This document shows positions 9,230 through 62,452 of a stretch of 64,000 nt of DNA, piece after piece. The stretch is taken from NCBI RefSeq assembly GCF_017301615.1, contig NZ_CP059066.1:2926888-2990887 (forward strand). The letters run 5' to 3'. Positions within the stretch are counted from its first letter, which is position 1. Each line of letters opens with the position of its first letter. The position numbers were made by a program, and so were the translations under genes. The notes under the pieces were generated by a model that saw only the letters and a program-made list of their open reading frames with translations, did no database searches and was not told the DNA's origin. The stretch is from Koleobacter methoxysyntrophicus (GTDB lineage Bacteria > Bacillota > Thermosediminibacteria > Koleobacterales > Koleobacteraceae).

Positions 9230-9419
9230 TGTTCGAAGCCCCCTCTCTTTTAATGAAATTCTCCAGGGCCTGGCGCGGTATCCTGATGCTTCGCCCTACG
9301 CGTATAGATGCTATTTTGCCCTGTTTGATCAGGTCGTAAGCCTTCGTTCGGCCTATCCGCAGGATCTTCGCCACTTCCGGCACCGTATAGACCGCTAGAG
9401 GAAGGTATTCTTCGTCCAT
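9207..9419 (-). CDS. Excisionase-family helix-turn-helix protein
   Basis: 70 aa. Residues 10-60 (YTVPEVAKILRIGRTKAYDLI, then GKIASIRVGRSIRIP) form the MerR-like HTH_17 excisionase fold: a helix-turn-helix followed by a beta-hairpin wing. It overlaps the integrase start by 23 bp, so the two are probably translated together. A role as recombination directionality factor is inferred from position; related proteins can also be plain transcription factors. Confidence 0.85.
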   Translation of the reverse strand: MDEEYLPLAVYTVPEVAKILRIGRTKAYDLIKQGKIASIRVGRSIRIPRQALENFIKREGASNIGRIQTG

Positions 9420-9836: not shown

Positions 9837-10391
9837 TCACAATACAAACGCCATCTTCTGAAGAAGAACACTTGAGCTGAGTTTTGTAAAATCAAGATCT
9901 CCGAATACCCGTCTTAGTTTTTTTTGTATTTTTTCGAACTTGCGCAGAGATATATTAATTACGGTGACCTTTCCGTATTTCTTTTCTCTGTATTCTCTTA
10001 TCTTCTGCTTTATTTCGCGCAGTCTTTCTTTTCTGTTCCACGTCTCAAACGATACTACAGTCCGAAACTTTTGGCGGTTTTTTCTGTACTCTTCCTTTGT
10101 AACAGGTTTAGTGTCAAGGATTTTCAGGACTCCTTCGATTTTGAAGCCGGCTATGAAGTGCCATACCTCCGGCGACAGGCGAGCGACAGAAATCATTATG
10201 TATCCGGGAAAGATTTTGTTTCGTTCAACAACTTGTCCTTTGGAGGTATATTTTATTCTTTTGAAGACGGGCAGAATTATTTTGTTGATCTTCCTCCTTA
10301 TGCCCGCAAACTCGGGCATTTTCAGACGCTGGTTAATTGCATTGCATACCTGCTCTTCTTTCCCCGTTTTTACCTGAACTGCGTAAATCAT
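9837..10391 (-). CDS. NusG-paralog transcription elongation factor (NGN domain)
   Basis: 184 aa. Residues 1-95 are a NusG N-terminal (NGN) domain: IYAVQVKTGKEEQV opens it, and the RNA-polymerase-binding hallmark FPGYIMI is at 61-67, followed by W77. The rest is highly basic (REIKQKIREYREKKYGK) and shows no clear KOW consensus. A general NusG sits beside secE/rplK, whereas this one lies in an integration module, like specialised paralogs (LoaP, RfaH, ActX) that bind a leader element and suppress termination in long operons. Seven related hairpins are found in this element (see the leader entries), so it is the obvious candidate regulator. That link is inference. Confidence 0.85.
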   Translation of the reverse strand: MIYAVQVKTGKEEQVCNAINQRLKMPEFAGIRRKINKIILPVFKRIKYTSKGQVVERNKIFPGYIMISVARLSPEVWHFIAGFKIEGVLKILDTKPVTKEEYRKNRQKFRTVVSFETWNRKERLREIKQKIREYREKKYGKVTVINISLRKFEKIQKKLRRVFGDLDFTKLSSSVLLQKMAFVL

Positions 10392-10633: not shown

Positions 10634-11122
10634 ATGCCGAAGGTCGAGCTGAATTCAGAAACCCTGAAAAAGATCTTTGCAAAAAATTTAAAAAAGCTCT
10701 TTAGCGGAAAAACGGCAACACAAATAGTTGATGAAATACATCAAAAAACAGGCAAAAAAGTAGCAAAATCCACTATTTTAAGCTATATAAGAGGAGAATA
10801 TCTGCCAACAAAAACAAAGCTAAAGATGCTGTCTGAATATTCGGGCAGACCGGTCGAATGGTTTTTTACAGACCATGATAAGGCTTTAAAAATGAAAGAT
10901 GAGATAGCAGAAGCCCTGAAAATCAAGCGAAGGTTCCCCAGACTGTTTCGCGTTCTTGCAAGATCAAAAACAGCATTAACTACAGAAGAAGAGGAAAAAC
11001 TTGCAAGAGTCGTAAAGGAACTGATCTGGGATCACCTTGACCACAGCGAAGATATCGACAGCGCCATAAAAGAACTCCATAGAGAAGCATTTGATATGCT
11101 GGAAGACGATGATGTTTATTAG
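10634..11122 (+). CDS. Phage-type HTH transcriptional regulator
   Basis: 162 aa. The N-terminal half (residues 15-75) has an atypical XRE-like HTH (FAKNLKKLFS, TATQIVDEI, KVAKSTILSYIRGEYLPTKTKLKMLSEY); the C-terminal half is acidic and helical (EEEEKLARVVKELI). It starts the only rightward operon of this region and is followed by an ImmA-like protease, as in ICEBs1 where ImmR is the repressor cleaved by ImmA. It probably keeps the integration module silent. Excellent ribosome site (GAGGAGGTG). Confidence 0.8.
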   Translation: MPKVELNSETLKKIFAKNLKKLFSGKTATQIVDEIHQKTGKKVAKSTILSYIRGEYLPTKTKLKMLSEYSGRPVEWFFTDHDKALKMKDEIAEALKIKRRFPRLFRVLARSKTALTTEEEEKLARVVKELIWDHLDHSEDIDSAIKELHREAFDMLEDDDVY

Positions 11123-11215
11123 AAACATCCGTTCGATAATATTATATCAAACATATGTTTGCATTGCAAGTTCGGTAATTGTTTTTTCAATTTGCCAGAA
11201 AAAAGGGTGAAAAAG

Positions 11216-11764
11216 ATGAGTGTCGTGCTGCACGAAAAAATACAGGATGTAAGAGAAGAACTTGTTTTCAAAACTGCCGTTGACATGGCCGGGCTTTTCA
11301 GCGAGCCGCCGATAGATCCGCTGTTTTTCTTCGGTATATACGGTTTGCGGGTTGAGGATTATGATTTTATCGATTCTCAGAACATAGAAGCTGTTACGAT
11401 TGCTCATGCAGACGGTTATATAACCCTGGTTAACCCCATGTTCAGGGAAAAATTCCCCCGGAGATACAGAGCAACCCTTGCCCATGAACTCGGCCACATC
11501 GTTTTGGGGCACTTCTCAATGTTTTCGGGACAGGAGCAGCCGGGCGATTTTCCTGAAGATACAAAAAAAATTCTCGAACGCGAAGCGTGGGAATTTGCCG
11601 GCGAACTTCTTGTTCCGGGATTTATGCTGAAAAGAGAAAAAACGCTTGATCTGAAAAAACTAACCGATACTTTTCAGGTCACGAAAAGCACAATGGAATG
11701 GCGACTGCAGAAAAACGGTCTTATTTTTTCGGATTTTCCAGAAGAAAATTTCTGGGAAAAATAG
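11216..11764 (+). CDS. ImmA/IrrE-family metallopeptidase
   Basis: 182 aa from the chosen ATG, which has AAAAGGGTG upstream; an earlier in-frame ATG at 11159 has no ribosome site. The zinc protease motif HELGH is at residues 90-94 in the context RATLAHELGHIVLGH, followed by EREAWEFAGELLVP, where the third zinc ligand is expected. Members of this family cleave the repressor encoded next to them and so induce excision of the element. Here it lies 94 bp after the HTH regulator, which is the likely substrate. Confidence 0.9.
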   Translation: MSVVLHEKIQDVREELVFKTAVDMAGLFSEPPIDPLFFFGIYGLRVEDYDFIDSQNIEAVTIAHADGYITLVNPMFREKFPRRYRATLAHELGHIVLGHFSMFSGQEQPGDFPEDTKKILEREAWEFAGELLVPGFMLKREKTLDLKKLTDTFQVTKSTMEWRLQKNGLIFSDFPEENFWEK

Positions 11765-11770
11765 AGAAAA

Positions 11771-11802
11771 GCGGACCCGCAAAAGGCGGGTCCGCTTTTT
11801 TT
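11771..11802. terminator. Bidirectional terminator between immA-like and mazF-like genes
   Basis: GCGGACCCGC and GCGGGTCCGC form a 10-bp stem with an AAAAG-type loop and T8 on the plus strand. It lies between convergent genes and touches the stop codon of the leftward gene. Confidence 0.95.
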
Positions 11803-12139
11803 AGTAAATATTTAGCACTTCGATAAACTTGCCCATAACCCGCTGCAGGTCGGCAGGGTCTATCCTTCCTATTTTCCCCGATATTTCATCTGCCGGGAGC
11901 GTGACGGGCTTTGGCCTAACTACGCTCGGCGCATCCAGCCCGGCTTCTTTCCATTTTTCGATCTTTGCTGCATCCAGGTTTTTGCTCCTTTTCCTGGATG
12001 TTATCTGCAGGGCTATAACCTGGTGATTCTTTTCGAAGTATTTTTCCGAAGAAACGATCAAACACGGCCTGGGTTTTGCACCGGTTCCTTCTACATACGG
12101 GAAACGTGCGACTACCACATCGCCTTTTTTGTATACCAA
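11801..12139 (-). CDS. MazF/PemK-family protein
   Basis: 112 aa with the PemK/MazF-type SH3-like barrel: YKKGDVVVARFPY at the start (typical KRGDIVLVxFP), KPRPCLIVSS, and the end segment KIGRIDPADLQRVMGKF. Family members are sequence-specific endoribonuclease toxins. No MazE-like antitoxin is adjacent: the upstream gene encodes a 304-aa protein of another type. The family is clear. Whether it is an active toxin, and what would neutralise it, is not. Confidence 0.85.
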   Translation of the reverse strand: MVYKKGDVVVARFPYVEGTGAKPRPCLIVSSEKYFEKNHQVIALQITSRKRSKNLDAAKIEKWKEAGLDAPSVVRPKPVTLPADEISGKIGRIDPADLQRVMGKFIEVLNIY

Positions 12140-14248: not shown

Positions 14249-14276
14249 AGGTTTTCCCTCCTTTCTGTTTTAAATA

Positions 14277-14479
14277 AAAAAACCGGCAGGAATAAAACCC
14301 ACCGGTTCTTTGGCTGAAAAAATATAAAAATCAGCATGAATAAGCTAATTTTTTGTCCGGATAAATTTGTTTTACATGAAAACCAAACTTCTGCCCCGGC
14401 ATCATCCCCGTCTGGACTTACCGGGCTGATAATAAAAACCTGTTAGTAATATTTTAGCAGGTTTTTTTTTAAAAATCAA
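14277..14479 (-). promoter_or_regulatory. Operon leader copy a: promoter, conserved hairpin, attenuator
   Basis: On the minus strand: -35 TTGATT (14474-14479), 17 bp, -10 TAAAAT (14451-14456). The conserved hairpin (14391-14430) follows with TATCAG, CCCGG, TAA, an inner stem-loop, GAT and CCGGG. After about 80 nt a terminator (ACCGGTGGG/CTGCCGGT arms, T7; 14277-14307) precedes the ribosome site of the 146-aa gene. Layout is that of a riboswitch or antitermination leader. Confidence 0.8.
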
Positions 14480-17848: not shown

Positions 17849-18271
17849 TTATACCCTCCTTTTGATCTTTCCTTTTTTTATTAAAACCGAAACCCTGCTG
17901 AGCAGGGGTTTTGTTAAACTGTAGTGGCCGGACGTGGATATACTGCCCTGCTCCGATACCGCAGCCAGCATTGCTTCGTTCAGCTCGTCTTCGCAGTCGG
18001 GGTCTATTTCAAGATCGAAACATTCCATCGAGTCTTCATTCATTACCGCCGCCCGCAGGTGCGGTACGAGATTATATACATCGATAAACAGCAGACAACC
18101 CGACAGGTCTCCGTATCTATCATAATCAAGATCAATCTGGATGTAGTAAGCTGTCCGAACTGTGCAAGGGGTTTCGCTCAGCAGGGCGTTTCCAAGCTCT
18201 ATACCGCAGTGTGAACAGATGCTTTTTTTGCCGTCAAAATACGCCCCGGGGTGATGGAAAAGTATACTCAT
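17849..18271 (-). CDS. Hypothetical zinc-ribbon protein, paralog of the gene at 50829
   Basis: 140 aa. N-terminal KSICSHCGIELG gives a CxxC half-ribbon; the middle has an acidic region (LEIDPDCEDELNEAM) and the end is basic (KKGKIKRRV). It is about 70 percent identical by eye to the protein encoded at 50829-51248, the closest paralogous pair in the window. Function unknown. 5 bp separate it from moxR. Confidence 0.65.
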   Translation of the reverse strand: MSILFHHPGAYFDGKKSICSHCGIELGNALLSETPCTVRTAYYIQIDLDYDRYGDLSGCLLFIDVYNLVPHLRAAVMNEDSMECFDLEIDPDCEDELNEAMLAAVSEQGSISTSGHYSLTKPLLSRVSVLIKKGKIKRRV

Positions 18272-18301
18272 ACATATCCCCTCCTTTCTTTTGGAAATAA
18301 A

Positions 18302-18328
18302 AAACCGGCAGGACAGAGCCTACCGGTT
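18302..18328 (-). terminator. Intra-operon terminator
   Basis: AACCGGTAGG and CCGGTT-containing arms with T-rich tail on the transcribed strand; nearly the same stem as the attenuators of leaders a and b. It overlaps the end of the 70-aa gene and lies before the zinc-ribbon gene. Confidence 0.8.
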
Positions 18329-18532
18329 CTTTGGCAGAGAATATACTTCTTCAGCAGAAAACGGTGCTTCTACTTCGATTTTGTACCCGTTAACGACTGC
18401 AGTTAAAATACCCCGACAGCCCCCGGGGAATTTTCCGGGGACAAGAGAGATGTTTTCGATTACAGTACCATCTTCCAGCTCGGTATCCGTGATACCCAGC
18501 TGGTACAGATCAACCAAAAGTTTTTTCAGCAA
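18320..18532 (-). CDS. Small hypothetical protein
   Basis: 70 aa, family not recognised. Predicted beta-rich (TVIENISLVPGKFPG, ILTAVVNGYKIEVEAPF). First gene after leader b. Its last codons (LPKNR) are written by the stem of the following terminator, an economical overlap also seen elsewhere in this element. Confidence 0.55.
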   Translation of the reverse strand: MLKKLLVDLYQLGITDTELEDGTVIENISLVPGKFPGGCRGILTAVVNGYKIEVEAPFSAEEVYSLPKNR

Positions 18533-18563
18533 CCCAAACCCTCCCTCTTTTTTTAATAAAATA

Positions 18564-18734
18564 AAAAAACCGGCAGGAATAAAACCTACCGGTTCTTTGG
18601 CTGAAAAAATATAAAAAACTGGTTTTTTTACAAAAAACTAAACTTTCGTTCCGGTATCGCCTTTGAGACTTGCCGGACTGATAATTCTAAAAACCTGTTA
18701 AATATATTTTAGCAAAACTGCCGGGAGTTTGCAA
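18564..18734 (-). promoter_or_regulatory. Operon leader copy b: promoter, conserved hairpin, attenuator
   Basis: Minus strand: -35 TTGCAA (18729-18734), 17 bp, -10 TAAAAT (18706-18711), conserved hairpin (18648-18684: TATCAG, TCCGG, CAA, inner loop, GAT, ACCGGA), then a terminator (18564-18594) almost identical to that of copy a, then the 70-aa gene. The stretch between hairpin and terminator (ATATTTTTTCAGCCAAAGA) is also shared with copy a. Confidence 0.8.
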
Positions 18735-22794: not shown

Positions 22795-22823
22795 GAAAGC
22801 ACCTCCTTTTTTTGAAAAAAATA

Positions 22824-22981
22824 AAAAAACGACAGAAAAAAAACTGTCGTTTTTTGAGCTTATCTTTCAAAACTTTACATACTATGATTTTTAACTGCCG
22901 GTATCGTCAACAGGACTTACCAGCCTGATAATCAAAATTTACCTTAGCTTAATTATAAACTATTTTGAACGTAAGTGTCAA
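22824..22981 (-). promoter_or_regulatory. Operon leader copy c: promoter, conserved hairpin, attenuator
   Basis: Minus strand: consensus -35 TTGACA (22976-22981), 18 bp, perfect -10 TATAAT (22952-22957), conserved hairpin (22894-22932: TATCAG, CTGG, TAA, GTC/GAC inner stem, GAT, ACCGG), then terminator ACGACAG/CTGTCGT with T7 (22824-22855), then the 137-aa gene. This is the strongest promoter of the set; the terminator stem sequence differs from copies a and b although the layout is the same. Confidence 0.82.
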
Positions 22982-29387: not shown

Positions 29388-29407
29388 AAACCTCCTTTCT
29401 AAAAATA

Positions 29408-29566
29408 AAAATCGGCAGAACTTTCGTCCTGCCGTTTTGGCGGAAATTAAAATTTTTACATGAAGCTTTTGCTTTTTACTGCCGGCATCGTTCCCTGTGA
29501 ACTTACCGGCCTGATAATAAAAACCTTTACGTTTAATATTATAACATTTAATTTAAATTTGTGCAA
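29408..29566 (-). promoter_or_regulatory. Operon leader copy d: promoter, conserved hairpin, attenuator
   Basis: Minus strand: -35 TTGCAC (29561-29566), 17 bp, -10 TATAAT (29538-29543), conserved hairpin (29479-29518: TATCAG, GCCGG, TAA, GTTC/GAAC inner stem, GAT, GCCGGC), terminator CGGCAGGACG/CTGCCG with T5 (29408-29439), then the 110-aa gene. The cleanest example of the YAA/RAU internal loop. Confidence 0.83.
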
Positions 29567-33817: not shown

Positions 33818-34205
33818 TCACTTTACAAGCCTACGCTTGTGCAAAGGAAGGTCTCCCCAGTTCCAAAGCATACTGTGAGTGCATATCGCTTCCCATACAC
33901 CGAAGGATTCTTCGATAGTGCAATTTAGGTTCTTCCTATCTTCCGTGGTCTTCACCTATGTGTATGAGGCTCGACTTCCTCTTGCTCCTCTATTGAGGCA
34001 AATTCACGATGCAGCAGAATTCACTTTACGTTACAACCTGCACTCTTGCTCGCTCCCTTTCGGGCTACTTTATCCCCACGCTTTAAGCACAGAATTTCTT
34101 CCATACTTAGTGGTTAGCTACTGAGCTCCCTAACGATTACTCAGATTGGACTTTCACCAGTAAGCATGCTTTGACTTAGCTGGACACGCTACACAAAATT
34201 ATTTA
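33818..34205 (-). mobile_element. 5' part of a group II intron (RNA domains upstream of the ORF)
   Basis: About 390 bp upstream of the RT start have the features of a group II intron leader on the minus strand: a GTG-containing 5' end (GTGTAGCGTGTCC), GAAAGTCC, AGCCCGAAAGGGAGC, and GAAGCGATATGC-type internal loops. The 3' half of the intron (rest of the ORF, domains V and VI) is absent. The exact 5' exon border was not fixed. Confidence 0.7.
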
Positions 34206-36641: not shown

Positions 36642-37352
36642 TTATAATAACTGAAAATCTACATTACCCATTCCCCATGCGGTTTTTTTCCCCGCACCTA
36701 TCCAGGCGGCTGTCTCAAGCAGATAGTATATAAAAAGTCTTATATCACCGATCGCTTTGTTATCGAAAAGCATTTTTACTGAACCTACAAAACCATAAAA
36801 TGATATATCGGTATCAAGTTTGAAATTTATCTGTTTTATTTTTGTTTCTACCGGATAAATTAATGTTATCAGTTGCGAAGCGTTCAGCAGGGGCTGATGT
36901 TGCTTGCAGCTGTACCATGATGCCAGAACACTACTCCAAAAGACATAGCTGTCGAATGCGGGTACAGAGTATCGTTCAAACTTGAAACAGGTAGGCGAGG
37001 TGAATTTCAGTTTTACTCCTGCCGCATTTGATAGGTTGGGGACGGAAATATCGGATAGATATTCTATTTTACAAACTTTCAGTCCGTATTTCTCAGCTCG
37101 TTCTCTTGCGGTATTTTCGGGAACAGGAAAAATATAAACCGCTTCAAAACCTTTATCATTGAGTTTTTTTATTGCGAAGAGCTTTTTGTAAAGTTCATGC
37201 CCTTGTGAGATGACGTGCATGTCTCCAAACATTCTGTAAACAATACTGTTTGCTTCTTTAGGCGAAAGTTTCTGGTTTGTGCCGTATTTTACTTTCATTA
37301 GATTCAATCTATTGTTATATATTGTTTTGTCTAACAGAATTTCAATGGTCAT
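36642..37352 (-). CDS. cas6: Cas6-like crRNA-processing endoribonuclease
   Basis: 236 aa RAMP protein. The C-terminal half has FTSPTCFKFERY and PAFDSYVFWSSVLASWY, followed by the glycine-rich loop WIGAGKKTAWGMG (residues about 217-229), all typical of Cas6 ferredoxin-fold nucleases. A possible catalytic His is H51 or H57 (HVISQGHELY). It would cut the array transcript within repeats to give crRNAs. Overlaps csf3 by 4 bp (ATGA). Confidence 0.85.
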   Translation of the reverse strand: MTIEILLDKTIYNNRLNLMKVKYGTNQKLSPKEANSIVYRMFGDMHVISQGHELYKKLFAIKKLNDKGFEAVYIFPVPENTARERAEKYGLKVCKIEYLSDISVPNLSNAAGVKLKFTSPTCFKFERYSVPAFDSYVFWSSVLASWYSCKQHQPLLNASQLITLIYPVETKIKQINFKLDTDISFYGFVGSVKMLFDNKAIGDIRLFIYYLLETAAWIGAGKKTAWGMGNVDFQLL

Positions 37353-38077
37353 TTTTCTTTTCCCCCTTTAATTTCCAGCAGTATCTCCTGTGGCGATTTT
37401 ATCGGCCAGTACTGATGTCTGGGCGGAATGTAGCATTCTACTATTTCATTTTGCCAGTACGGCGGAGAGTATGTTGTGAAAGTTTTATTCCACCGCGGGT
37501 CCGCCTGTTTTACTTCTTCTGCTGGTATTACGCGGGAAGGATAACCATCGGGACCTGTTAATGTATAGTCGTTTTTTGATTCTGTCACGGTTATTGTGCC
37601 AATCATCCCGTAGCCGGCAGGAACTCTTACTCCAAGACCGCTGCTTTTCAGGGGTTCCAGTATTCTAGCGACTTCATACGGGTCTCCCTCAAAGTAGAAG
37701 TAGATCTCGGGAGTTTCCAGCAGTAGCAAGTAACCCGCCTTTTGGCGGTATATGCCCATACCGCTGTGCACTTTACGCTGTATGGTTGTATATCTGCTTA
37801 CGTCATCGAGCCACGATTGGGTTGATGTCCAGGCTTCTCTTCGCAGCCTGCTTTTTTTCCGGTTGATAAACATTGCTGATGCTTTGTATATTTTGTATTT
37901 TTCCCCAACCTGTTTTACGGGTATAGATATATGAGGAGCACCTGGCGCGAAATCGAAACTTCCAATTTGCTGGGCTTTCGAAAAAATCAGTATACTGTCC
38001 AGGTGCAGAGGACGGTAAGGCTTCCCGGCAGGAATCGCCAGGGGAGAAAGCATTTTAAAGGTAACTTTGTATTGCAA
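37349..38077 (-). CDS. csf3: Csf3, type IV CRISPR Cas5-like protein
   Basis: 242 aa. Starts YKVTFKMLSPLAIPAGKPYRPLHLDSIL, the N-terminal strand/loop pattern of Cas5-like Csf3 (SP-A-P...LHLD-IL), then GLGVRVPAGYGMIGTI as a glycine-rich RAMP segment and a C-terminal PPYW/PPRHQYWP region also seen in Csf3. It should cap the 5' end of the crRNA in the effector complex. It follows the degenerate end of CRISPR array 2. Confidence 0.85.
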   Translation of the reverse strand: MQYKVTFKMLSPLAIPAGKPYRPLHLDSILIFSKAQQIGSFDFAPGAPHISIPVKQVGEKYKIYKASAMFINRKKSRLRREAWTSTQSWLDDVSRYTTIQRKVHSGMGIYRQKAGYLLLLETPEIYFYFEGDPYEVARILEPLKSSGLGVRVPAGYGMIGTITVTESKNDYTLTGPDGYPSRVIPAEEVKQADPRWNKTFTTYSPPYWQNEIVECYIPPRHQYWPIKSPQEILLEIKGGKEK

Positions 38078-38133
38078 ATTTAATCCCTCCTGTTTTTGGT
38101 TTAATAAAAATAATTATTTGGATCCCGGATATT

Positions 38134-39896
38134 CTTTCTTATCCTGTATAGTTGGAATCTAACCAAGCCAACTTCTCTAAATTTGTTTTTTGAGGTTTAT
38201 TCTTCTTATCCTGTATATGGAATTTAGCCGTTGAAAGGCCGGTCGATGTTACATGTATTTTGGTTGATTTCTTATCCTGTATAGTTGGAATTTATCCTTA
38301 GTTTTATACTAAAAGCTGTTGCATAAAATTGACTTCTTATCCTGTATAGTTGGAATTTACCCTATCAGCCCGGAAAAGAGCTGCAGATACATACTCAACT
38401 TCTTATCTTGTATAGTTGGAATTTACCCGTAAGGTAAAACCTAAGTTTTTACAACCTATATAATCCATCTTCTTATCCTGTATAGTTGGAATTTGAACAC
38501 GGTAAGCAGATAGGGCATATTGTCTATATCGTATACTTCTTATCCTGTATAGTTGGAATTTGAACGAAATAGAGAAGTTAGCACTTACGAAAGGAGCGTA
38601 CTTCTTATCCTGTATAGTTGGAATTTGAACAATGGACGAAGAACATTTTTCTCCAGCGATCTTCACAGCTTCTTATCCTGTATAGTTGGAATTTGAACTT
38701 GCCAGTTACAGGGTCAAAACTGATGTATTTTCCCTTCTTATCCTGTATAGTTGGAATTTGAACCATCTACTTCTGCAAGCTTTTCACGGCTTTGGCTTCC
38801 TTCTTATCCTGTATAGTTGGAATTTGAACTTCATCAACAAGAATTAAGCCATCACGAACAGAAGACTTCTTATCCTGTATAGTTGGAATTTGAACTCGTC
38901 AATCGTGAATAATTCTTTACCACTACCTAAAGTCTTCTTATCCTGTATAGTTGGAATTTGAACTGAAGGTCGTCAACGCAACCTGCATAGAACTTATCAA
39001 CTTCTTATCCTGTATAGTTGGAATTTGAACTGAAGAAAGGGGAAAATGCGCAATATTCGTTATAGCCTTCTTATCCTGTATAGTTGGAATTTGAACTCAA
39101 TTATATTTTGCTATCAAATTTACGGGATTTCATCTTCTTATCCTGTATAGTTGGAATTTGAACGAATGTACGTTTGATAACTTTCAAATTGATGAAAACT
39201 TCTTATCCTGTATAGTTGGAATTTGAACTCTAGCTGGGAGACGGTGAAATGGCAAACATAAAAACTTCTTATCCTGTATAGTTGGAATTTGAACTTTCCT
39301 CTACAGGTTCCGATGCCTTAATAAAATCTCTCTTCTTATCCTGTATAGTTGGAATTTGAACCCTGCATCCATGCCTTTTTAATCTGGTCGATGGTCACTT
39401 CTTATCCTGTATAGTTGGAATTTGAACTAAGAAATGGAAATTACAAAATAGAGGAGGATGAATAACTTCTTATCCTGTATAGTTGGAATTTGAACTCATG
39501 TAGGATTAAGCTGTAAAGCAATAGATGCCTGCTTCTTATCCTGTATAGTTGGAATTTGAACCTTTTTCGATCCTAGCTATTATGTCCGCAATCGTTTCAC
39601 TTCTTATCCTGTATAGTTGGAATTTGAACACATCCGCAATTTCCGCAGCGATCCCGGGAGTGCCGACTTCTTATCCTGTATAGTTGGAATTTGAACTGCA
39701 GTCCCCCTCCCGGATGCATCTTCCCTCGTCAACTTCTTATCCTGTATAGTTGGAATTTGAACTTTGTTTTCAAAAAAAATTGCTTCGATTGTTTCGCCCT
39801 TCTTATCCTGTATAGTTGGAATTTGAACCAGGCCCTGAAGGACGGCCGGGCAGTATTCATCGAGGTCTTCTTATCCTGTATAGTTGGAATTTGAAC
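38134..39896 (-). CRISPR. CRISPR array 2: 27 repeats, 26 spacers
   Basis: 30-bp repeat, in crRNA orientation starting GTTCAAATTCCAACTATACA and ending GGATAAGAAG; period 65-68 bp, spacers 35-38 bp. Twenty-two repeats (38471-39896) are nearly identical; the five at the left end (38134-38430) are degenerate, with losses around GAAC. Decay at the left implies that the leader is at the right, so transcription is leftward, the same as the cas genes. Spacers all look different from each other; their targets are unknown. Confidence 0.98.
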
Positions 39897-40021
39897 CCAT
39901 TTAGCAATCCCATTAATCGTGTTTTTCAGGACGAGATAAAGGATTTTTTGTCGTCGATCTGCGGTAGAGCAAAAAACCTGCAAGATCGACGACATTTAGT
40001 ATCGATCTTGAAAAACTATCG
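39897..40021 (-). promoter_or_regulatory. Probable CRISPR leader of array 2
   Basis: 125 bp between the recD stop codon and the first intact repeat. It contains a GTCGTCGATC/GATCGACGAC inverted repeat (about 39950-39999), perhaps the recD terminator, and ends CTAAATGG directly before the repeat. The same CTAAATGG borders the last repeat of array 1, supporting a conserved leader end. Confidence 0.6.
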
Positions 40022-42265
40022 TTATTCAGATCTGTTTTTTTGGGCTTCTTCTTTTATCCGCCAGTAGAGTTTTGAAAACCTTACAGGGTCGGGTTTGAAA
40101 TTGTTCCAGCTTTCTACATCCCGTCCGCCTATCAAGGTAATACTTTCTGTACAGCGTGTAAATGCAGTATAAAGCATCGCTTGAGTTAGACCCTCAGGTT
40201 CAGGTTCAATAAAGTATACTTCTCTTGCCTGACCGCCCTGCGCTTTGTGTACCGTCATTGCAAAGGCATGTTCTATATACCAGTTGATTTCGCTTTTGTT
40301 GTATTCTGCTTCCAGACTGTTTCCGCCAGGAAGAAGAAATTCTACAATTATCGTGTTTTCGTTTATCTGCTTTATAACCCCGCGCGTACCGTTATATATC
40401 GTCGGACGTTCACTGTGTCTTAGTTCTCTTATACGCCGCAAGAAGGGGTTTGATATTTTTATAAAATCTTCATAGTCGTTACGAACGGTTATTATGTAAT
40501 CGCCGGGGGCGAAATCACCGTTGTCAATACCCAGGAAGTGCTTTCTAAGGGCTCTGTTTAGTTTCCGGACTTCTTCTTTTCTTCGAGCAAGCACAAAGAT
40601 ATCTTGTATGTCTTTGTGTTCTTTATCTGTCAGCATAGAAAGCAGCGCTTCTTGTGTGCTGTGCTTTGAATCTACGGGGACAATCCGGGTTTTTGCGCCC
40701 GGGATAATACCGGTGCCTGCTCTGATATTTAGAGCGTTTTTAACCGTTTCGCTCTGCTGTCTGTAACAGCCGGGAAGGTCAATAACAGCAAACAGGTCGT
40801 CTGCTTTTATAAGTGCATCAAATACACCGCCGGGACCGATCGGTGGGAGCTGTGATTCATCTCCCGAAAACACAAAACGGGTGGAAATATCAGATATACT
40901 CAGCAGCTTTGCAATTACCGGTACTGTTGCCATACTCATTTCGTCTACTATAACTACTCTATCACCTGTTGAAACATTCGGCGCGATGTCTTCTTCCGGG
41001 AAAAACAGGTCGCCGTCCTGGTAAATACGTGAATAGCGGTGGATTGTATGATACGGTGTTTCGGACTCGGCAGCGAGCCGCTGGGCAGCTATTCCTGTTG
41101 GGGCCAAAAGTGCTGCCTGAACTCCCGATTTGTGCAGGCCGTAGATCAGAGCTTTTAAAACCGTCGTTTTACCGCTGCCTGCACCGCCGCGCAGAACCGT
41201 AATTTTATTATTCATGACATTCCGAATTAAGTTCTCCTGCGCAGGATTGAATTTTATGCCCCTCTTTTCTGCCCATTCCAGTGCATATCCGGAAACTGAT
41301 TCAGGAAGCAACGCTGTGTTTTCCTTTAATATCGTATTCAGCCTTTTTGCTATAAATTTTTCCTCGAAGTAGACGCGCGATAGGTAGACCGCTTTGGACC
41401 TGTAGCTGCCGTCTCCGGCAAAAAATTCGTTTTCTTCCGCCATGGATTCTGAAAAGCTTTTGTCTATTGTAAGCCTGCCGGCGGTACCCGAGCCGGTTGC
41501 AATAAGTGACTGAAATTCAAATTTCCCGTAAGGGCAGTAGTTTTGTATTTTTTTGTAAAGCTCCTGAAACGGTATATACGCATGCCCTTCCTGCGATTTT
41601 CGAGCGACAAGTGCTGCAGCACATGATATTACCCTGTCAGCACCGAACGGTCTGCCGAGATATCCGGCTATTGCATCGGCTGCTTCGAGCGCTTCCTTTA
41701 TCCTGCTGAATACGTCCGGCACGTGAAGGATTATCCACGGACAGTTTTTTATCAGTTCTGCTACCGTAGTATTATTTCTTTTTGCCCGGCGAGAAAAGAA
41801 GTCTACCAGCCGGACAATCTGCGGTATGTCTAATCTTAACCCCGCCCTGTCCGCAATTGACCATACAGCTTGAATTTCCGTGTTTCGTTCTATCTGCCTG
41901 ATGCACTCTGCAAAGATATCTGCTTTTTCGCTGCCCAGCAGTTCAGAGATTTTTTCGATCCCCGGATCGGATTTAAAGAGGTCGCTTACGGTCTGTATGC
42001 CTGCAGCGGACATAGCACTTCCCAGTTCTTCAGGGTTAATGCCCGGGAAAAGCAGTGCCCAGTCTTCCGGGTCAAGCCTGCCGTCTACAGAAGGGCTGAC
42101 AGCAAGAACTTCAATCCAATCTTTTGTGCGCGGACCTTCGAATTTATAGCACAGGCCGGGTTTTAAACCGGGAATTTTCTTTTTGAATTTTAACTTTACA
42201 AGACCGGATTCGGTTCGCACCTTACCTGTTCTGTTGGTATATTTTACAAGTATTCCTTCGACCAT
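40022..42265 (-). CDS. recD: RecD-type superfamily 1 helicase of the type IV-D CRISPR system
   Basis: 747 aa. N-terminal OB-like and helix-hairpin-helix parts (1-130; ELGSAMSAAGIQTVSDL), then an SF1B helicase: Walker A GGAGSGKTT at 360-368, VIVDEMSM near 440, GDESQLPP near 470, a UvrD_C_2-type end AFAMTVHKAQGGQ and YTAFTRC. Typical type IV-A loci carry DinG (Csf4) here; a RecD-like helicase defines subtype IV-D. It likely unwinds target DNA for interference with plasmids. 2 bp after csf2. Confidence 0.92.
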   Translation of the reverse strand: MVEGILVKYTNRTGKVRTESGLVKLKFKKKIPGLKPGLCYKFEGPRTKDWIEVLAVSPSVDGRLDPEDWALLFPGINPEELGSAMSAAGIQTVSDLFKSDPGIEKISELLGSEKADIFAECIRQIERNTEIQAVWSIADRAGLRLDIPQIVRLVDFFSRRAKRNNTTVAELIKNCPWIILHVPDVFSRIKEALEAADAIAGYLGRPFGADRVISCAAALVARKSQEGHAYIPFQELYKKIQNYCPYGKFEFQSLIATGSGTAGRLTIDKSFSESMAEENEFFAGDGSYRSKAVYLSRVYFEEKFIAKRLNTILKENTALLPESVSGYALEWAEKRGIKFNPAQENLIRNVMNNKITVLRGGAGSGKTTVLKALIYGLHKSGVQAALLAPTGIAAQRLAAESETPYHTIHRYSRIYQDGDLFFPEEDIAPNVSTGDRVVIVDEMSMATVPVIAKLLSISDISTRFVFSGDESQLPPIGPGGVFDALIKADDLFAVIDLPGCYRQQSETVKNALNIRAGTGIIPGAKTRIVPVDSKHSTQEALLSMLTDKEHKDIQDIFVLARRKEEVRKLNRALRKHFLGIDNGDFAPGDYIITVRNDYEDFIKISNPFLRRIRELRHSERPTIYNGTRGVIKQINENTIIVEFLLPGGNSLEAEYNKSEINWYIEHAFAMTVHKAQGGQAREVYFIEPEPEGLTQAMLYTAFTRCTESITLIGGRDVESWNNFKPDPVRFSKLYWRIKEEAQKNRSE

Positions 42266-42267
42266 AT

Positions 42268-43218
42268 TTACTCATCCCCTGTGTCTGATTCCTGTTTGTT
42301 TTTTGTTTTTTCGCTTTCTTTTTCTTTTGCCTGAAGCTGTTCGGGTATACCGAGTATGGTTTCTTTGATTCTGTTCCTGTTTTTTTCGAGGTATTCCCAG
42401 TACGGACCCGATTTCTGTGCCAGTTCTTCGGCAGTCAGGGTGTCTCTGTTTTCGTAATATTTCCCCTCGAATTTTCCGTGTCCCCTGGCACTGTTGCCGC
42501 CCAGCGTGCACCGGGTCAGAAATGCTTCTATGAAAGCATAAAATGCTGACTCTGTTAGAGCAGAAACCCCGTCCCGCAGTCCGAATTCGTGCAGCAACGT
42601 TGTGCCGGCTGGAATAGCTTCGTAGTAGAAAATCATCTGTCCTTTCTCTTCTTCACTTAACCCTTCTTTAGAACCTTCCAGTGCTGTTTTTGTATATCCT
42701 ACAGGATTCTGTTTTATTACCGCTATCAGTTCCGATGCGGTAATTTCGACTGAATCTATTTTTAATTCCGGATACAGTGCAGCTGTTTCTCTGACAAGCG
42801 GTACCGCGAATCTTACAATCAGGTTTGATCGAAAATAGTGCCCTCTATAAGTCCCTCCCAGCAGATCGAGAAACGGCAGAGCGCTGCGGAGGTCTTTATA
42901 CACCTGGCGGTTGGGTGGAACAGGTTTTGCATTTGAGGTTGTACCACCCGCGAAGAACAGATACAGGACATCCAGCGGTATCTCTGTATTGGGGTCAAGT
43001 TCAAGACTTTCAAAGGTTCTGGACATAAATGCCCTTCGACCCGTGCCGCGGATAGAGTTTCCCGATACAGCAGGAACTGAAATATAATTCCCAACCTCAT
43101 CGCAGTAAACGGGTATTTTTCTGATCTCTGTTACATTCGATTTTTGATCAAAATCGGGTATCAGGGCACCGTGAATTAACGAATCTTTTAACTTTAACTG
43201 CCCAATTATTCTTTTCAC
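42268..43218 (-). CDS. csf2: Csf2, type IV CRISPR Cas7-like backbone protein
   Basis: 316 aa RAMP. Residues 60-75 (VPAVSGNSIRGTGRRAF) hold the conserved Csf2/Cas7 S-GNSIRG motif, followed by LYLFFAGGTTS and LDLLGGTYRGHYFRSNL. The end has LGGNSARGHGKFEGKYY. Cas7-type subunits polymerise along the crRNA. The charged C-terminus (KEKESEKTKNKQES) is probably disordered. The gene starts 2 bp after the DUF2325 gene and is followed by recD after 2 bp. Confidence 0.9.
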   Translation of the reverse strand: MKRIIGQLKLKDSLIHGALIPDFDQKSNVTEIRKIPVYCDEVGNYISVPAVSGNSIRGTGRRAFMSRTFESLELDPNTEIPLDVLYLFFAGGTTSNAKPVPPNRQVYKDLRSALPFLDLLGGTYRGHYFRSNLIVRFAVPLVRETAALYPELKIDSVEITASELIAVIKQNPVGYTKTALEGSKEGLSEEEKGQMIFYYEAIPAGTTLLHEFGLRDGVSALTESAFYAFIEAFLTRCTLGGNSARGHGKFEGKYYENRDTLTAEELAQKSGPYWEYLEKNRNRIKETILGIPEQLQAKEKESEKTKNKQESDTGDE

Positions 43219-45185: not shown

Positions 45186-45424
45186 AGTGTTCCTCCTTTC
45201 AGAGTTATTTGCCCATCGCCAATGTTAGACAGGCTTACGCGCGCATACCACTGCCCCTACCCGTCAGGACTGTTTAGGTTATGCACGACAGTGCCCGGAG
45301 CTTGGGCATCACCCCGGGGTGTCATAACCCGTCTAACGTAGCCCGATGGCGTTTCAGCCCCGGCTGAGGCTAGTCAACTAAGGCCTTGTGAAGCCCCCGC
45401 CTCTATAGGCGGTGGGTAGTTGAC
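45186..45424 (-). ncRNA. IscB omega-RNA (HEARO-type)
   Basis: 239 bp, GC-rich, between the left end and the iscB start. Pairings: the end hairpin CCGCC/GGCGG, CAGCC/GGCTG, a long-range GTTAGAC (near 45335) with GTCTAAC (near 45222), and inside it GGTTATG with CATAACC. This nested design upstream of an HNH gene is that of HEARO/omega-RNA. The guide should be the about 16 nt on the 5' side, in the interrupted gene: ending GAAGGCCTACTAT. Confidence 0.85.
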
Positions 45425-46378: not shown

Positions 46379-48946
46379 CTAACTCAGCGCAAACTCAAGA
46401 CTTGCCCTAAACCGGTTTTCATCTTCGTTGTTATAAAACGGTACACCAATCAAACGGTATTTCTTGTCTCCAAACCTCAGCAGTTTACCGCTGAACTCGT
46501 TAGTGATTTCTTTTAGAAAGTCCTCTTTCCAGCGGTCATGCTCTTTGAGATGTTTTCCCTTTGGCTCAATGAAGAGCTGGTAAGTAAGCAATTCGCCGCC
46601 TTTTTCGCGCAGGAACAATACAAAATCGGGGCGGAAGGTACGGCCATCGCTGAAGTTGTAGACAGCAAAATGCCCCTCGTTGCGCAGTAGATAGATTTCA
46701 TCGTATCGTGCTTGCAGTTTATGCATTTGCCTATCCAGCATACGCACAAAGGCTTTTTCTTCGCTTGTGCCGTAAATGGTGTTGAAGGCAAACCAGTCTT
46801 TGTTAGAGACGAAATGCTCAAATTGCGCGTCGTCTGAAGCGCGAGGGTTTTGGGCATCGAATTTCAAAATTTTGTCTTTGAAGATTTTATGGATCCAGTC
46901 TTCCTTGAAGTCCCGTGTGCCTTCATATTCGGTAGCGTTTGCACAGATTTCAGATTCAATTTGTGCGAGTAAGCCCGACACCGCGGCAAGTTTCTCGGTG
47001 TGGTTATCGTCCAACTCACGCACATTGCCCTGGAAGGTGATTTCCAACCCACCGAGATAATCTTCGCTGGAGATGAATGTTTGTATTGAATCGAGATGAG
47101 GAAAGTAACGCTTTAAATTGGCGAAGGTAAAGAACGGGTTGCGAGCAATGGCAGATTGAACGATGTTACGTTCAATGTCCCGCACTTTCACGTCCAGGCG
47201 GGTTTCGTCATTGGCTGTCAGGCCATTATTTGCTTTTTCCAGTACTGCGGTCGCGCTACCGTGACCTGTAGTAATGAAATGGATATAGTTTCGCTTCTTT
47301 ACACCTAGATCGGCAAGAGAACGGATGCGCCGGTAATCTTTGGGGCGGCGGTCGTTGAGCCAGATAATCCCATACTTGTAAAACGGCGTTTTCTTGAATG
47401 AATCTTTGAGTTTGAGTTCGCGGGCCACTTCGCGCTCGTCCATCATACCCTGCTCGATGAGCGCCTTACGGATTTCAGCGATATAGCGTGAGTCGTTGAT
47501 GCTGTGATAATGAAGTTCCTCCAGCACGCGCAGTTCATGGTTGAGGTCGCCGTCAAATTTGCGGCGGAAACGGTCGTTGTATCCGGGCAGGACAAAAGGG
47601 AAATAGCGTGCCCCGCGCCCAATGAGCTGCGCCTCGGAAAAGGTGGTGGCACCGATTTTGCCCTTACCGGAATCACGAGTTTCATAACACCGTACAATGT
47701 CGAACAGATTCAGCACGTCCCAGCCTTCGTTGAGCTTCTGTACAGCAAAAATGGCACGGATGCGGTTGTTTTTGTCTTCCAGCGTATTGACCAGAATTTG
47801 GTACCGCTCTTTTTCGCTTTCTTCGTTTACAGAAAGACAGAAGTCGGAACGGAATTCGTGCTTCAGGCGCTCTGCCAACTGATCATCGCTGATGCCGTTT
47901 TTGGCAAAGAACCGAAAAGCACGCTGTACCAGCGGGATGTTTGACTTGTTGCGGATACCGGCAATATGCCTACCTTTAAGCTCGTCAATGAGCTTGTGGA
48001 ATTCTGCTTTGAGCTGCTTCGATTGTTCAATAGTGCGTTGGGCTTTAAACAAAATCACGGGTTTAAGGTTAATACGGTATTTCGCCGCCACCTCCTGCTT
48101 ATACTGGCTTAAGATAAGGGCTTGTAAAATACGTTCTTGCTGATCAAGGTCCGATTGCACGATGACTACATCCTTAGAAAAACGGTCGTTGCGAAAATTA
48201 ACGAGGTCGTAGCGGATGATAACCTTGTTGCGGTATTTTTCCACCATGGCAGGAGTGGCGTAATCGTGCGTGGCAGTAAATTCTAGCAGAAGATTGTCTT
48301 CGTTCTGCATAAAGATGCGCTCTACGGTATTTTCCCAACTCTCAAACAGTTTGCTTTGCGCTTTGGTTTTGACGTTCATATGATGAGCTTCATCGGCGAT
48401 TAAAACGACTTTGTGCTTGCGGAAATCCTCAAAGGTCAAAGCGTTTTCTTTTTCGCTGGTCAGGTCAGAATGGAGTTTCTGAATCGTAGTAAAGCAAATA
48501 TTGATGTTACCTGGGTTAACTGCTTCGAAATTCTCCACCGGCAAAACGCGCACGCGGCGATTGTTAATGTGAATACCCTGATTAAAAAGGTATTTAATGC
48601 TGACAGGGTTGAGAAAGTTATCTTTGGTCTTCTCGATAATATTAGTAGAATTGACAAAGAACAGGAAGTTGCGGTAGCCCTGCTCGTAGAGATAAAGAAT
48701 CAGCCCGGCCATGATAAGCGTTTTGCCGCTTCCCGTTGCCATATTGAACAGGAAATGCAGTGGGTAGGTTTTGCCGGGGTAGTCGTTTTTGTAGCAGTAA
48801 ATAAAACGCGCAAAGGCTTCCACCTGATAAGGGCGCAGTTCGTATCCAGGGTTCAGGTTCCGCACTATAGCATCGGGGACTTCTTTTTTAATGCTGCCCC
48901 ATTGAGAAAGAGTGTTAAGTTGTTCATATAGAAACTGCTCAGGCAT
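46379..48946 (-). CDS. res: Type III restriction enzyme, Res subunit (system 1)
   Basis: 855 aa from the ATG at 48946 (GGAG upstream), overlapping the end of mod by 8 bp. SF2 helicase: Walker A MATGSGKT near 69-76, DEAHH near 185-189, motif III FTATHDYATP, motif VI LIGRGARYFPF. C-terminal PD-(D/E)xK nuclease: RPDFVLFL, then LFIEPKGKH near residue 805. Translocates on DNA and cuts about 25-27 bp from a Mod recognition site. Much higher GC and different codon use from the neighbours, indicating separate acquisition. Confidence 0.95.
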   Translation of the reverse strand: MPEQFLYEQLNTLSQWGSIKKEVPDAIVRNLNPGYELRPYQVEAFARFIYCYKNDYPGKTYPLHFLFNMATGSGKTLIMAGLILYLYEQGYRNFLFFVNSTNIIEKTKDNFLNPVSIKYLFNQGIHINNRRVRVLPVENFEAVNPGNINICFTTIQKLHSDLTSEKENALTFEDFRKHKVVLIADEAHHMNVKTKAQSKLFESWENTVERIFMQNEDNLLLEFTATHDYATPAMVEKYRNKVIIRYDLVNFRNDRFSKDVVIVQSDLDQQERILQALILSQYKQEVAAKYRINLKPVILFKAQRTIEQSKQLKAEFHKLIDELKGRHIAGIRNKSNIPLVQRAFRFFAKNGISDDQLAERLKHEFRSDFCLSVNEESEKERYQILVNTLEDKNNRIRAIFAVQKLNEGWDVLNLFDIVRCYETRDSGKGKIGATTFSEAQLIGRGARYFPFVLPGYNDRFRRKFDGDLNHELRVLEELHYHSINDSRYIAEIRKALIEQGMMDEREVARELKLKDSFKKTPFYKYGIIWLNDRRPKDYRRIRSLADLGVKKRNYIHFITTGHGSATAVLEKANNGLTANDETRLDVKVRDIERNIVQSAIARNPFFTFANLKRYFPHLDSIQTFISSEDYLGGLEITFQGNVRELDDNHTEKLAAVSGLLAQIESEICANATEYEGTRDFKEDWIHKIFKDKILKFDAQNPRASDDAQFEHFVSNKDWFAFNTIYGTSEEKAFVRMLDRQMHKLQARYDEIYLLRNEGHFAVYNFSDGRTFRPDFVLFLREKGGELLTYQLFIEPKGKHLKEHDRWKEDFLKEITNEFSGKLLRFGDKKYRLIGVPFYNNEDENRFRASLEFALS

Positions 48947-50750
48947 TATACCACTCTCCATAAAACGCCCTGTTCAACGCTTTGTCTTCTTCGCTGACGT
49001 CAAACTGCGCGTCGTCTATCTCAGAAAGGTTTACATATAATTGGTTCTTGTCCAGCAGTTCCGCCAGCAGGCGTTTTTGCTTTTCAAGACCGTTTGGTTC
49101 TTTGCCGATGGCGATAAAATCATTGACCGCTTCTTCATGCATTGCGGGGTTGACATACCAATTTAAAAATGAACCTTCTGCCATTTCGCGCCAGATTTGC
49201 ACGAGTTCTTCGCTGGAACCGGCGGCCTGGATGCGATCCATGAAGGCTTCGTTGTACTTCATCAGTTCGCAGTAGATGAAGTCACCGCCACCTTTCCAGC
49301 CAACGGATTTGGAGATGCCCTTGTTATCCTTTCCCTGAACCACATTGTACAACCTTTGAATAGCTGTGTTGATTCCGCCTTCTAGTTGCTCAATTCCAAT
49401 AAATCTCCTTTTTAACTTTAAACACACAGCGGCCGTAGTTCCGCTGCCGAGAAAAAAGTCAAGCACTAAATCGTCCGGGTTAGTACCAGCTTCGACAATG
49501 ATTCTAAGCAAACCTTCTGGTTTGGCTGTATCATAGTTTGTCTCTTTGGTGTTTTTGATTAAGTCATTACTCCAAACATCTCCCAGTGCTACATATTGTG
49601 CATCCTTTGCAGTTAGAAGTTTTATAACTGCTTCTTTATCAAGGTCAACCCTATCGGAAACATATGTTTTCAGACCAGACCCAGCTTTCAACTCCCAAGC
49701 AGCAGGTGTTCTGCCCATACGCCCCCTTGTATAAAACCAACCCTTTTCGTCTTTCTGAATCCTGCTAATAGTAGAAACCTTGTATGGCCCCAACGGTGGA
49801 TTCCAGAATCTCATGCTCTTATTCTTTGCGTAGATAAATATGTTTTGGTATTCAGTAGGCATAGAAGAACTCGTTGAGTGAGATCTCGAACTCCCACCTT
49901 CTCTTCCCTTATGCCAAATAATTTCATTGATGAAATTTTCTCTACCAAAGATTTCATCTAGAAGAATCTTTAAATAATGCGACTCGTTGTTATCAATATG
50001 AACAAATATATTGCCATCATCTGTTAGTAATTCATATGCTACCAATAGTCGATTTCTAAGAAATGTGAGCCATGTAGAGTGCCTGAAGTTATCATTATAG
50101 GAAAAACTATCTCGCTCTGTATTGAATGGCGGGTCAATATAAATCAGCTTCACCTGTCCGCGGAATTGGGTTTTGAGAGTGTGCAGGGCGAGCAGGTTGT
50201 TGCCTTTGATAATCAGGTTTTCACGGATAACACCGTTTTCATCGCGGCGAAAGCCGGTTACAGGCTCAATGCTGTTAGCCGTATAGCGTTTGAAGTTAGT
50301 CAACACCTTCGGGTCAAGCAGGCGGTTTATCTCATCCTGCGCCAGCACTTCGTTGAAGAAAATCTCCTTGCGCTTTTCTTCTTCTTTGGTCTGCCCGCCT
50401 TCTAAATAGCAGTCTTTGTAGGGCCACACCAGTGCCACTTCGCCGCGTTCGCGCAGATATCTGCCGCCAATGGTCAGCCCGATGCGGTTTTTGAAGCGGG
50501 TGTAGGAGTTATCCAGAAAGTTCTTCTGGGCAGTATAATCAATGAATTTATTGACATCGAAAATCCAATGCCCTTCGATTTCTTCAAAGAACACTGCCTT
50601 AATTTCGGGATCGGAAAGCAAAAGTTTGACCAAGTTGCGGTCAACCTTCCAAGCAGCATCCTGTACGGCGGCAAGGATAAGCTCGCCGTCGTCATCAACA
50701 AAGCGCGAATCAGATTTGAGCAGGTTGTTTAGTTTTGTATTAAACGCCAT
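48939..50750 (-). CDS. mod: Type III DNA methyltransferase, Mod subunit (system 1)
   Basis: 603 aa beta-class N6-adenine methyltransferase: catalytic DPPFNT at 206-211 (LIYIDPPFNT) precedes the AdoMet motif LDFFLGSGTTAA near 437-448. The region between, with NEIIWHKGREGG and SRSHSTSSSMPTEYQNIF, should be the target recognition domain. Modifies host DNA and gives sequence specificity to Res. Intact and long enough to be active; no simple-sequence repeat for phase variation was seen at the start. Confidence 0.95.
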   Translation of the reverse strand: MAFNTKLNNLLKSDSRFVDDDGELILAAVQDAAWKVDRNLVKLLLSDPEIKAVFFEEIEGHWIFDVNKFIDYTAQKNFLDNSYTRFKNRIGLTIGGRYLRERGEVALVWPYKDCYLEGGQTKEEEKRKEIFFNEVLAQDEINRLLDPKVLTNFKRYTANSIEPVTGFRRDENGVIRENLIIKGNNLLALHTLKTQFRGQVKLIYIDPPFNTERDSFSYNDNFRHSTWLTFLRNRLLVAYELLTDDGNIFVHIDNNESHYLKILLDEIFGRENFINEIIWHKGREGGSSRSHSTSSSMPTEYQNIFIYAKNKSMRFWNPPLGPYKVSTISRIQKDEKGWFYTRGRMGRTPAAWELKAGSGLKTYVSDRVDLDKEAVIKLLTAKDAQYVALGDVWSNDLIKNTKETNYDTAKPEGLLRIIVEAGTNPDDLVLDFFLGSGTTAAVCLKLKRRFIGIEQLEGGINTAIQRLYNVVQGKDNKGISKSVGWKGGGDFIYCELMKYNEAFMDRIQAAGSSEELVQIWREMAEGSFLNWYVNPAMHEEAVNDFIAIGKEPNGLEKQKRLLAELLDKNQLYVNLSEIDDAQFDVSEEDKALNRAFYGEWYNA

Positions 50751-54568: not shown

Positions 54569-54576
54569 GGTAATAA

Positions 54577-59369: not shown

Positions 59370-60205
59370 TTCGCCCTCCTTATTTCACCCCAGATTATAG
59401 AAGCGGGATCTTTTGTTTGTTCAAGGAGGGCGTTTATATCTTCGGGTTCTTTGATCAGCCACCCTTCAAGCAGGTATCTTACATCTTCTGCCGAACGGGC
59501 TGTTTTTAAATCTATAATCAAATTTTCTGCTTCCTTTAAAGACGGCGAGCTTGCCCCGTTTTTTCTTATAATCATAGCAAGTCTTAAGACTGCTCTAATT
59601 ATGTTAACGGGCGCTCCCGTCTTTTTCCGCAAAATGTCACTTTCAACCTGCGGAGTATGGTATTCCGTTCTGACACGAAACCCTCTCCGCAGTGTAGCTT
59701 CGAGAAGAGACCGCTGGTTGTTTGTCGTGATAAATACAAACATTTTGTCCAGCTTTCCTTCCCAGACTTCACCCTGCGGCCCGTATACCCGGCCGCTTTG
59801 TAAAAAATCTAAAAGCAGCGCTTCCATCCGTTCGGGTGTCTTGTCTAGTTCGTCTATACAGACGACGGCGAACCCCCCGTTGGAAGCGTCCACTGCTCTT
59901 TTCAAGACCCCGGGCTTGTATGCCTCTTCAGGGCGTGACACGCCTACGACCAACCTGGGGACATCAAGCCCTATGAACATTTCCTCGTCGGACAACCAAT
60001 TGTGACAGAGTAGGTATATGTACTCTGCCCCGATAATCTTAGCAAAACTTTCTGCTAGAAAAGTTTTGCCGGTACCGGGTTGGCCTTCGAGTATAATAAC
60101 TTTTGCGCCGTTGTTTCTGTTCAGGGCGCAATTTAAGGCTACAAGTTCCTTTCTGCGAGGAACATAGCCTATTTTCGTTAGTTTTCTTTTTAAATCACCA
60201 AACAC
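59351..60205 (-). CDS. MoxR-family AAA+ ATPase (second copy)
   Basis: 284 aa. Walker A EGQPGTGKTFLA near 40-51, Walker B VVCIDELDKTPE near 112-123, sensor 1 MFVFITTNNQRS, then RRGFRVRTEYHTP with the arginine finger; C-terminal helical lid. Not closely related to the copy at 16816, so the two pairs were acquired or diverged independently. First gene after leader e; AAGGAGGTC precedes the start. Confidence 0.92.
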   Translation of the reverse strand: MFGDLKRKLTKIGYVPRRKELVALNCALNRNNGAKVIILEGQPGTGKTFLAESFAKIIGAEYIYLLCHNWLSDEEMFIGLDVPRLVVGVSRPEEAYKPGVLKRAVDASNGGFAVVCIDELDKTPERMEALLLDFLQSGRVYGPQGEVWEGKLDKMFVFITTNNQRSLLEATLRRGFRVRTEYHTPQVESDILRKKTGAPVNIIRAVLRLAMIIRKNGASSPSLKEAENLIIDLKTARSAEDVRYLLEGWLIKEPEDINALLEQTKDPASIIWGEIRRAKWSGGN

Positions 60206-60247
60206 TGTTTTTGACCTCCTTAATATCTTAATATTTTGTTAAAAAAA

Positions 60248-62416: not shown

Positions 62417-62452
62417 TTTTTGTCAAACCCCCTTCTTTTTTTTAAAAAATAA

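Follow-up and report, generated by a model that had tools for sequence, protein, structure and literature searches.

A hairpin repeated across one mobile element

The window that we analyzed is a stretch of 64,000 nucleotides from Koleobacter methoxysyntrophicus (contig NZ_CP059066.1, positions 2,926,888 to 2,990,887). On its minus strand, at 29516-29481, lies a hairpin that reads UAUCAG and then GCCGG, UAA, GUUC-ACAGG-GAAC, GAU, G, and CCGGC. It sits in a leader with a promoter and an intrinsic terminator:

29538-29566, minus strand: sigma-A-type promoter TTGCAC-N17-TATAAT of the reported copy (fixed-distance pattern)
29481-29516, minus strand: leader hairpin with UAUCAG, the reported copy (covariance model)
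29403-29434, minus strand: intrinsic terminator CGGCAGGAC-GAAA-GTTCTGCCG plus a T run, reported copy; the first open reading frame (ORF) starts at about 29387

The original prediction held that a leader hairpin of this kind is conserved in multiple copies, and this is real. A structured search of the genome's end located 11 copies, and a covariance model was then built from them. Across the 3.1-Mb genome, the model finds these 11 copies (E = 4.5e-10 to 1e-5), all on the minus strand, and none elsewhere; the next-best match has E = 8.7. The copies span genome positions 2,941,269 to 3,013,285, or 72 kb, within a single integrase-bearing element. Seven are inside the window (named by the T of TCAG: 14429, 18681, 22928, 29514, 60381, 60564, and 62594) and four lie to its right (68491, 72099, 78118, and 86392 in window-equivalent positions). 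In an unfiltered scan of the window, the seven copies scored 43-59 bits and the best other place scored 15 bits. Besides the reported copy, the window contains:

14395-14431, minus strand: leader hairpin 14429; upstream promoter TTGATT-N17-TAAAAT
14275-14308, minus strand: leader terminator of copy 14429
18650-18683, minus strand: leader hairpin 18681; upstream promoter TTGCAA-N17-TAAAAT
18562-18594, minus strand: leader terminator of copy 18681
18297-18330, minus strand: second, near-identical terminator within the 18681 operon, about 30 nt before ORF 17849-18271
22897-22930, minus strand: leader hairpin 22928; upstream promoter TTGACA-N18-TATAAT
22822-22851, minus strand: leader terminator of copy 22928
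60350-60383, minus strand: leader hairpin 60381; promoter TTGAAT-N18-TAAAAT; precedes the AAA ATPase ORF 59351-60205
60240-60277, minus strand: leader terminator of copy 60381
60531-60566, minus strand: degenerate hairpin 60564, directly past the stop codon of the helicase ORF 60581-62146
62564-62596, minus strand: leader hairpin 62594; upstream promoter TTGCGT-N17-TAGAAT
62450-62482, minus strand: leader terminator of copy 62594

The weakest copy is 60564 (copy f of the original prediction), which has GUCAG, a broken inner stem, and no promoter. It is probably a decaying or re-loading site. Leaders 72099 and 78118 precede near-identical small ORFs and have terminator sequences in common (window-equivalent 71600-78200, L006); judging from this common downstream sequence, they are a recent duplication.

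Covariation and the internal loop

The consensus consists of UUAUCAG, five outer base pairs, a Y-R pair, AA opposite RAU, three or four inner base pairs, and a variable loop. In the alignment of the 11 copies, 94% of the cells in the stems are paired, as compared to 84% in shuffled alignments (0 of 500 shuffles reach 94%); 15 cells are changed on both sides, as compared to 6.3 in shuffles (0/500); and the covariation score is 0.518, as compared to 0.325 for the control, although these statistics are less independent because the copies are paralogs of one another, some of them recently duplicated. Despite this kinship, six pairs have double changes. If the structure is slid along the alignment, the proportion of paired cells falls to 22-48%. 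The covariation proposed for the outer stem is thus borne out by both controls, and in fact the outer and inner stems are both strongly backed by covariation. For instance, the outermost pair is GC in five copies, UA in four, and CG in two.

It had also been proposed that the loop is conserved while the inner stem varies freely. The first part of this claim stands: A17, A18, and A34 are present in all 11 copies, as is a purine at position 33, and U35 is present in 10. The second part does not, as compensatory changes occur at all four inner pairs, so this part still forms a stem despite its variable sequence.

The same internal bases had been likened to the UAA/GAN internal loop of rRNA and RNase P. 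There is a resemblance, with UAA on one side, GAU on the other, and an asymmetric loop. The UAA/GAN motif is a 3x3 loop, and the U of UAA pairs across the loop with the A of GAN. The element's hairpin, by contrast, does not support a non-canonical loop of 3x3. Two copies have C at position 16, and this position pairs with R36 (the combinations are UG in seven copies, UA in two, CG in one, and CA in one, so that 10 of the 11 are paired). Also, there are four bases (RAUR) on the 3' side. Y16 varies between copies and still pairs with R36 rather than with A34, so UAA/GAN does not fit as a name for this loop. Furthermore, the RNAalifold consensus also pairs A17 with U35, and leaves A18 opposite R33-A34. 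The internal loop is a small asymmetric one, either 1x2 (A/GA) if A17 and U35 are paired, or 2x3 (AA/GAU); since both bases are nearly invariant, the choice between these is beyond the reach of covariation. Overall, the pattern of conservation is best explained if a protein or RNA polymerase recognizes the structure.

Promoters and terminators of the leaders

Ten of the 11 copies share the same order: a sigma-A promoter, the hairpin near the predicted transcript start, and an intrinsic terminator. The pattern TTG-N16-19-TANAAT at a fixed distance from the hairpin is present at these 10 copies and at just 0.23% of random places on the same strand, and at these copies the spacer is N17/18 and the end of the promoter is 20-26 nt upstream of TCAG. 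(This fixed-distance test replaced a shuffle test on the best promoter score within 75 nt, which was uninformative because the sequence is AT-rich.) The transcript starts are placed about 13-20 nt before the hairpin, which is a prediction because it derives from the position of the -10 box.

An intrinsic terminator lies within 200 nt of the same 10 copies, with its T run beginning at +97 to +147, as compared to 5.3% of random same-strand places. In nine leaders, the gap from the terminator to the start codon is 24-47 nt, so most of the first genes should be expressed only by readthrough of the terminator. In leader 86392, the gap is 108 nt and a second terminator is present. In leaders 72099 and 78118, the terminator is followed by a TATAAT-like sequence, which might be a weak second promoter.

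Some further terminators are internal to the operons and immediately precede genes of the same direction (at 18304, 13798, and 28452). The one at 18297-18330 is so close to the next ORF (about 30 nt) that there is no room for that ORF to have its own promoter. On the hairpin strand of the element, there are 3.6 terminators per 10 kb, as compared to 0.44-0.73 on the left flanking chromosome.

Two further features of these regions are worth recording. Near-identical terminators are reused across the element (at 14282, 18304, 18569, and 62458, as well as to the right of the window), with the sequence ACCGGTRGR...YCTGCCGGT and one ACTGGTAGA variant. Also, a TGTARA motif lies about 15-25 nt after the hairpin (about +45 to +60 from TCAG) in 7 of 10 leaders, while shuffles average 0.6; this motif was noticed post hoc, and it is possibly a pause or a second recognition element.

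A NusG paralog on the same element

The genome encodes two proteins with NusG domains, and the divergent one belongs to the element, near its integrase:

8129-9229, minus strand: tyrosine integrase, at the element's end
9207-9419, minus strand: probable excisionase (HTH_17)
9837-10391, minus strand: NusG paralog of 184 amino acids with an NGN domain and a basic C-terminus; proposed antiterminator
10634-11122, plus strand: likely repressor, divergent from the NusG paralog (weak match to HTH_3, 17.7 bits, below the cut-off)
11159-11764, plus strand: ImmA/IrrE-type peptidase (Peptidase_M78)

The NGN domain of the paralog is clear (PF02357, 36.3 bits with a cut-off of 22.2), while its score against the LoaP family (NF033641, 35.4 bits) is under the cut-off of 125. 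Neither a Pfam match to KOW nor a KOW-like frame downstream was found. A single-sequence fold of the protein was poor (pLDDT of 51) and had NusG/Spt5 NGN domains as its top structural matches, which were non-significant; with a model of this quality, a divergent KOW domain may still be present. We recognized no elongation factor on the element other than the NusG paralog. The genome search for the hairpin found no copy upstream of the paralog's own gene.

The gene order (integrase, probable excisionase, NusG paralog, and then the divergent pair of a likely repressor and an ImmA-type peptidase) resembles an early antitermination operon of the lambda N type, although the operon is predicted from the gene order and the match to the repressor is weak. 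Other phage-type genes on the element encode a sliding clamp, a Mu Gam-like protein, a thymidine kinase, a primase-like zinc ribbon, an AAA/VWA pair, a DUF6744 protein, and a DHH protein. No capsid or conjugation genes were found among the ORFs that were scanned, which are part of those on the element, and a search for integration-site repeats did not find any. The element may be a prophage, a satellite, or an integrative plasmid.

A proposed antitermination circuit

The original prediction envisioned recognition of the hairpin by a protein or a ligand. A protein (or RNA polymerase) fits best, and a ligand-binding aptamer is unlikely because all 11 copies are on one mobile element that also encodes a NusG paralog. 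We propose that the leader hairpins recruit this paralog in an antitermination circuit that resembles that of lambda N, and we put the probability of this at about 60%. The sequence itself shows the hairpin, its covariation, the order of promoter, hairpin, and terminator, that all copies are on one element, and that a NusG paralog is linked to them; from these features we infer that the paralog binds the hairpin, that it brings about processive antitermination, and that the repressor controls the circuit.

In the proposed circuit, RNA polymerase would start at the sigma-A promoter and would have made the UAUCAG hairpin by about nt 50. By default, the intrinsic terminator, some 100-150 nt later, would halt it and the operon would be off. 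Once the repressor is lifted, the adjoining NusG paralog would be made; its gene has the place that N has in lambda, before those for the probable excisionase and the integrase. The paralog would then recognize the hairpin on the nascent RNA, probably by the UAUCAG flank and the A/GA loop, and would join the elongating polymerase via its NGN domain. The modified polymerase would pass the leader terminator as well as the later terminators within the operon, so that the element's operons would come on together. On the other hand, some of the terminators that look strong could leak and just serve to tune expression, which would speak against the circuit.

Alternatively, the hairpin could modify RNA polymerase by itself, as put or EAR RNAs do, without a dedicated protein. 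This is unlikely, but it has a precedent in the put RNA of phage HK022, which acts without a protein (PMC9378689). Like put, the element's hairpin is a nascent RNA structure that lies directly downstream of the promoter and ahead of terminators, and it is strongly conserved. However, put is about 70 nt long with two stem-loops (PMC9378689), while the element has a single hairpin of about 30 nt. No Rfam family matches at the places of the hairpins (in the window, only a HEARO RNA and a group II intron reached the gathering score). Also, a put-like RNA would leave the linked NusG paralog unexplained.

It is rather more doubtful that the hairpin is bound by some other RNA-binding protein from the element or the host, such as an N-like or ConAn1-like protein or a translational regulator, with the NusG paralog being incidental. 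The element does encode many small uncharacterized ORFs, and the conAn system of the pLS20 plasmid family is an example of Gram-positive antitermination by a protein plus an RNA that has no need of NusG (PMC8955417). conAn also acts on a mobile element whose operons contain many intrinsic terminators (PMC8955417), as do those of the Gram-positive element described here. In contrast, conAn is a single bipartite system, located where one conjugation operon starts, while many operons of the element have the short hairpin ahead of them and the candidate protein is a NusG paralog. Moreover, this paralog is the one recognized elongation factor there, and it is in an early regulatory position.

We consider it improbable that the repeat is a stabilizer of mRNA 5' ends or a DNA operator for a repressor. 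The predicted transcripts do have the repeat at their 5' end, and its CCGG arms form a partial palindrome. But stem bases that covary as RNA pairs, along with a loop of varying length, argue against an operator, and a stabilizer would not account for the terminators before the first genes. Finally, a classical attenuator or small riboswitch, which would sense a ligand or switch with the terminator, is very improbable: a loop that is compact and conserved does precede a terminator, but minimum-energy folds keep the hairpin and have no consistent pairing with the terminator (some of the folded segments ended before the T run), the terminator sequences vary between leaders, and the copies are on one element only, with unrelated genes downstream.

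Search for relatives

We found no relatives of the hairpin in 300 genomes of the phylum or in 26 of the class. When viral contigs and 84,980 species genomes were scanned for the pattern, there was one match per stretch at most, and the matches that were examined with their context resembled coding or unrelated DNA and scored 10-32 bits, as compared to 43-62 bits for the real copies. Similarly, at E = 1e-8, the NusG paralog had no relatives in phages, plasmids, viral contigs, or 399 genomes; matches at weaker E values resemble housekeeping NusGs. Because neither the hairpin nor the paralog has a relative in any of these collections, all of the evidence comes from copies within one element.

Via its other proteins, the element has distant relatives only. 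Moorella phage MTATph1 has DUF6744 in common with it, and its annotation includes an ATPase that adjoins an ORF of the VWA protein's size as well as a DHH protein. There was no NusG domain in the whole MTATph1 record and no hairpin in the 50 kb that were searched. This joint absence speaks for the proposed circuit. As no homologous element was found, the co-occurrence of the hairpin and the paralog is limited to one genome.

Comparison to known systems

The precedent for the proposed circuit is LoaP, which requires a leader hairpin and antagonizes termination at the leader terminator (PMC12691694). In the dfn operon of Bacillus velezensis, a specialized NusG paralog acts with a small hairpin that follows the promoter in the leader; an intrinsic terminator precedes the first gene, and others are internal to the operon (PMC12691694). 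Similarly, 10 of the element's 11 copies have the hairpin and then an intrinsic terminator before the first gene. However, the dfn hairpin is of the UNCG type, while the element's 11 loops are variable (0 of 11 are UNCG), and the element has 11 sites on a mobile element, while LoaP/dfn has two, in polyketide clusters. Because of the low LoaP score, the lack of a UNCG loop, and the lack of a recognizable KOW domain, LoaP/dfn is a precedent for the element's system but not a family to which it belongs.

As in lambda, the candidate antiterminator is encoded in a predicted early operon beside a likely repressor and ahead of the probable excisionase and the integrase, and the RNA sites are near the starts of operons that have terminators. 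In contrast to N, which is a short arginine-rich peptide, the element's protein is a NusG paralog with an NGN domain, and the element has many sites while lambda has two nut sites.

The sequence would also be consistent with a broader claim, to which we give slightly less than even odds: that this is the mobile element's own lambda-N-like switch, comprising a KOW-less NusG paralog and a previously undescribed hairpin before about 10 operons, and that it represents a second class of RNA-recruited NusG paralogs, independent of LoaP/dfn. If so, then the recruitment of NusG paralogs by RNA arose or diversified more widely, and the 11 sites are a natural set for mapping recognition. It would also hint at how a large integrated element silences its long operons and then activates them jointly.

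Other features of the region

The 14429 operon ends with a gene for a PemK/MazF-like toxin (window 11801-12139), for which no antitoxin was identified. There is a HEARO RNA (RF02033, 142 bits) at window 45204-45424 on the minus strand and, separate from it, an RRXRR/HNH (IscB-like) protein at L006:10931-12121. A fragment of a group II intron (D1-D4, RF02003, 99 bits) lies at window 34026-34163. A match to Cas6 and a weak match to DevR/RAMP within window 36642-43218 indicate a possible CRISPR-Cas locus that is carried by the element. There are two type III-like restriction-modification gene pairs, at 46379-50750 on the minus strand and at 52076-57558 on the plus strand. To the right of the element, at genome positions 3,021,831-3,055,826, matching stretches about 26 kb apart suggest a duplicated block.
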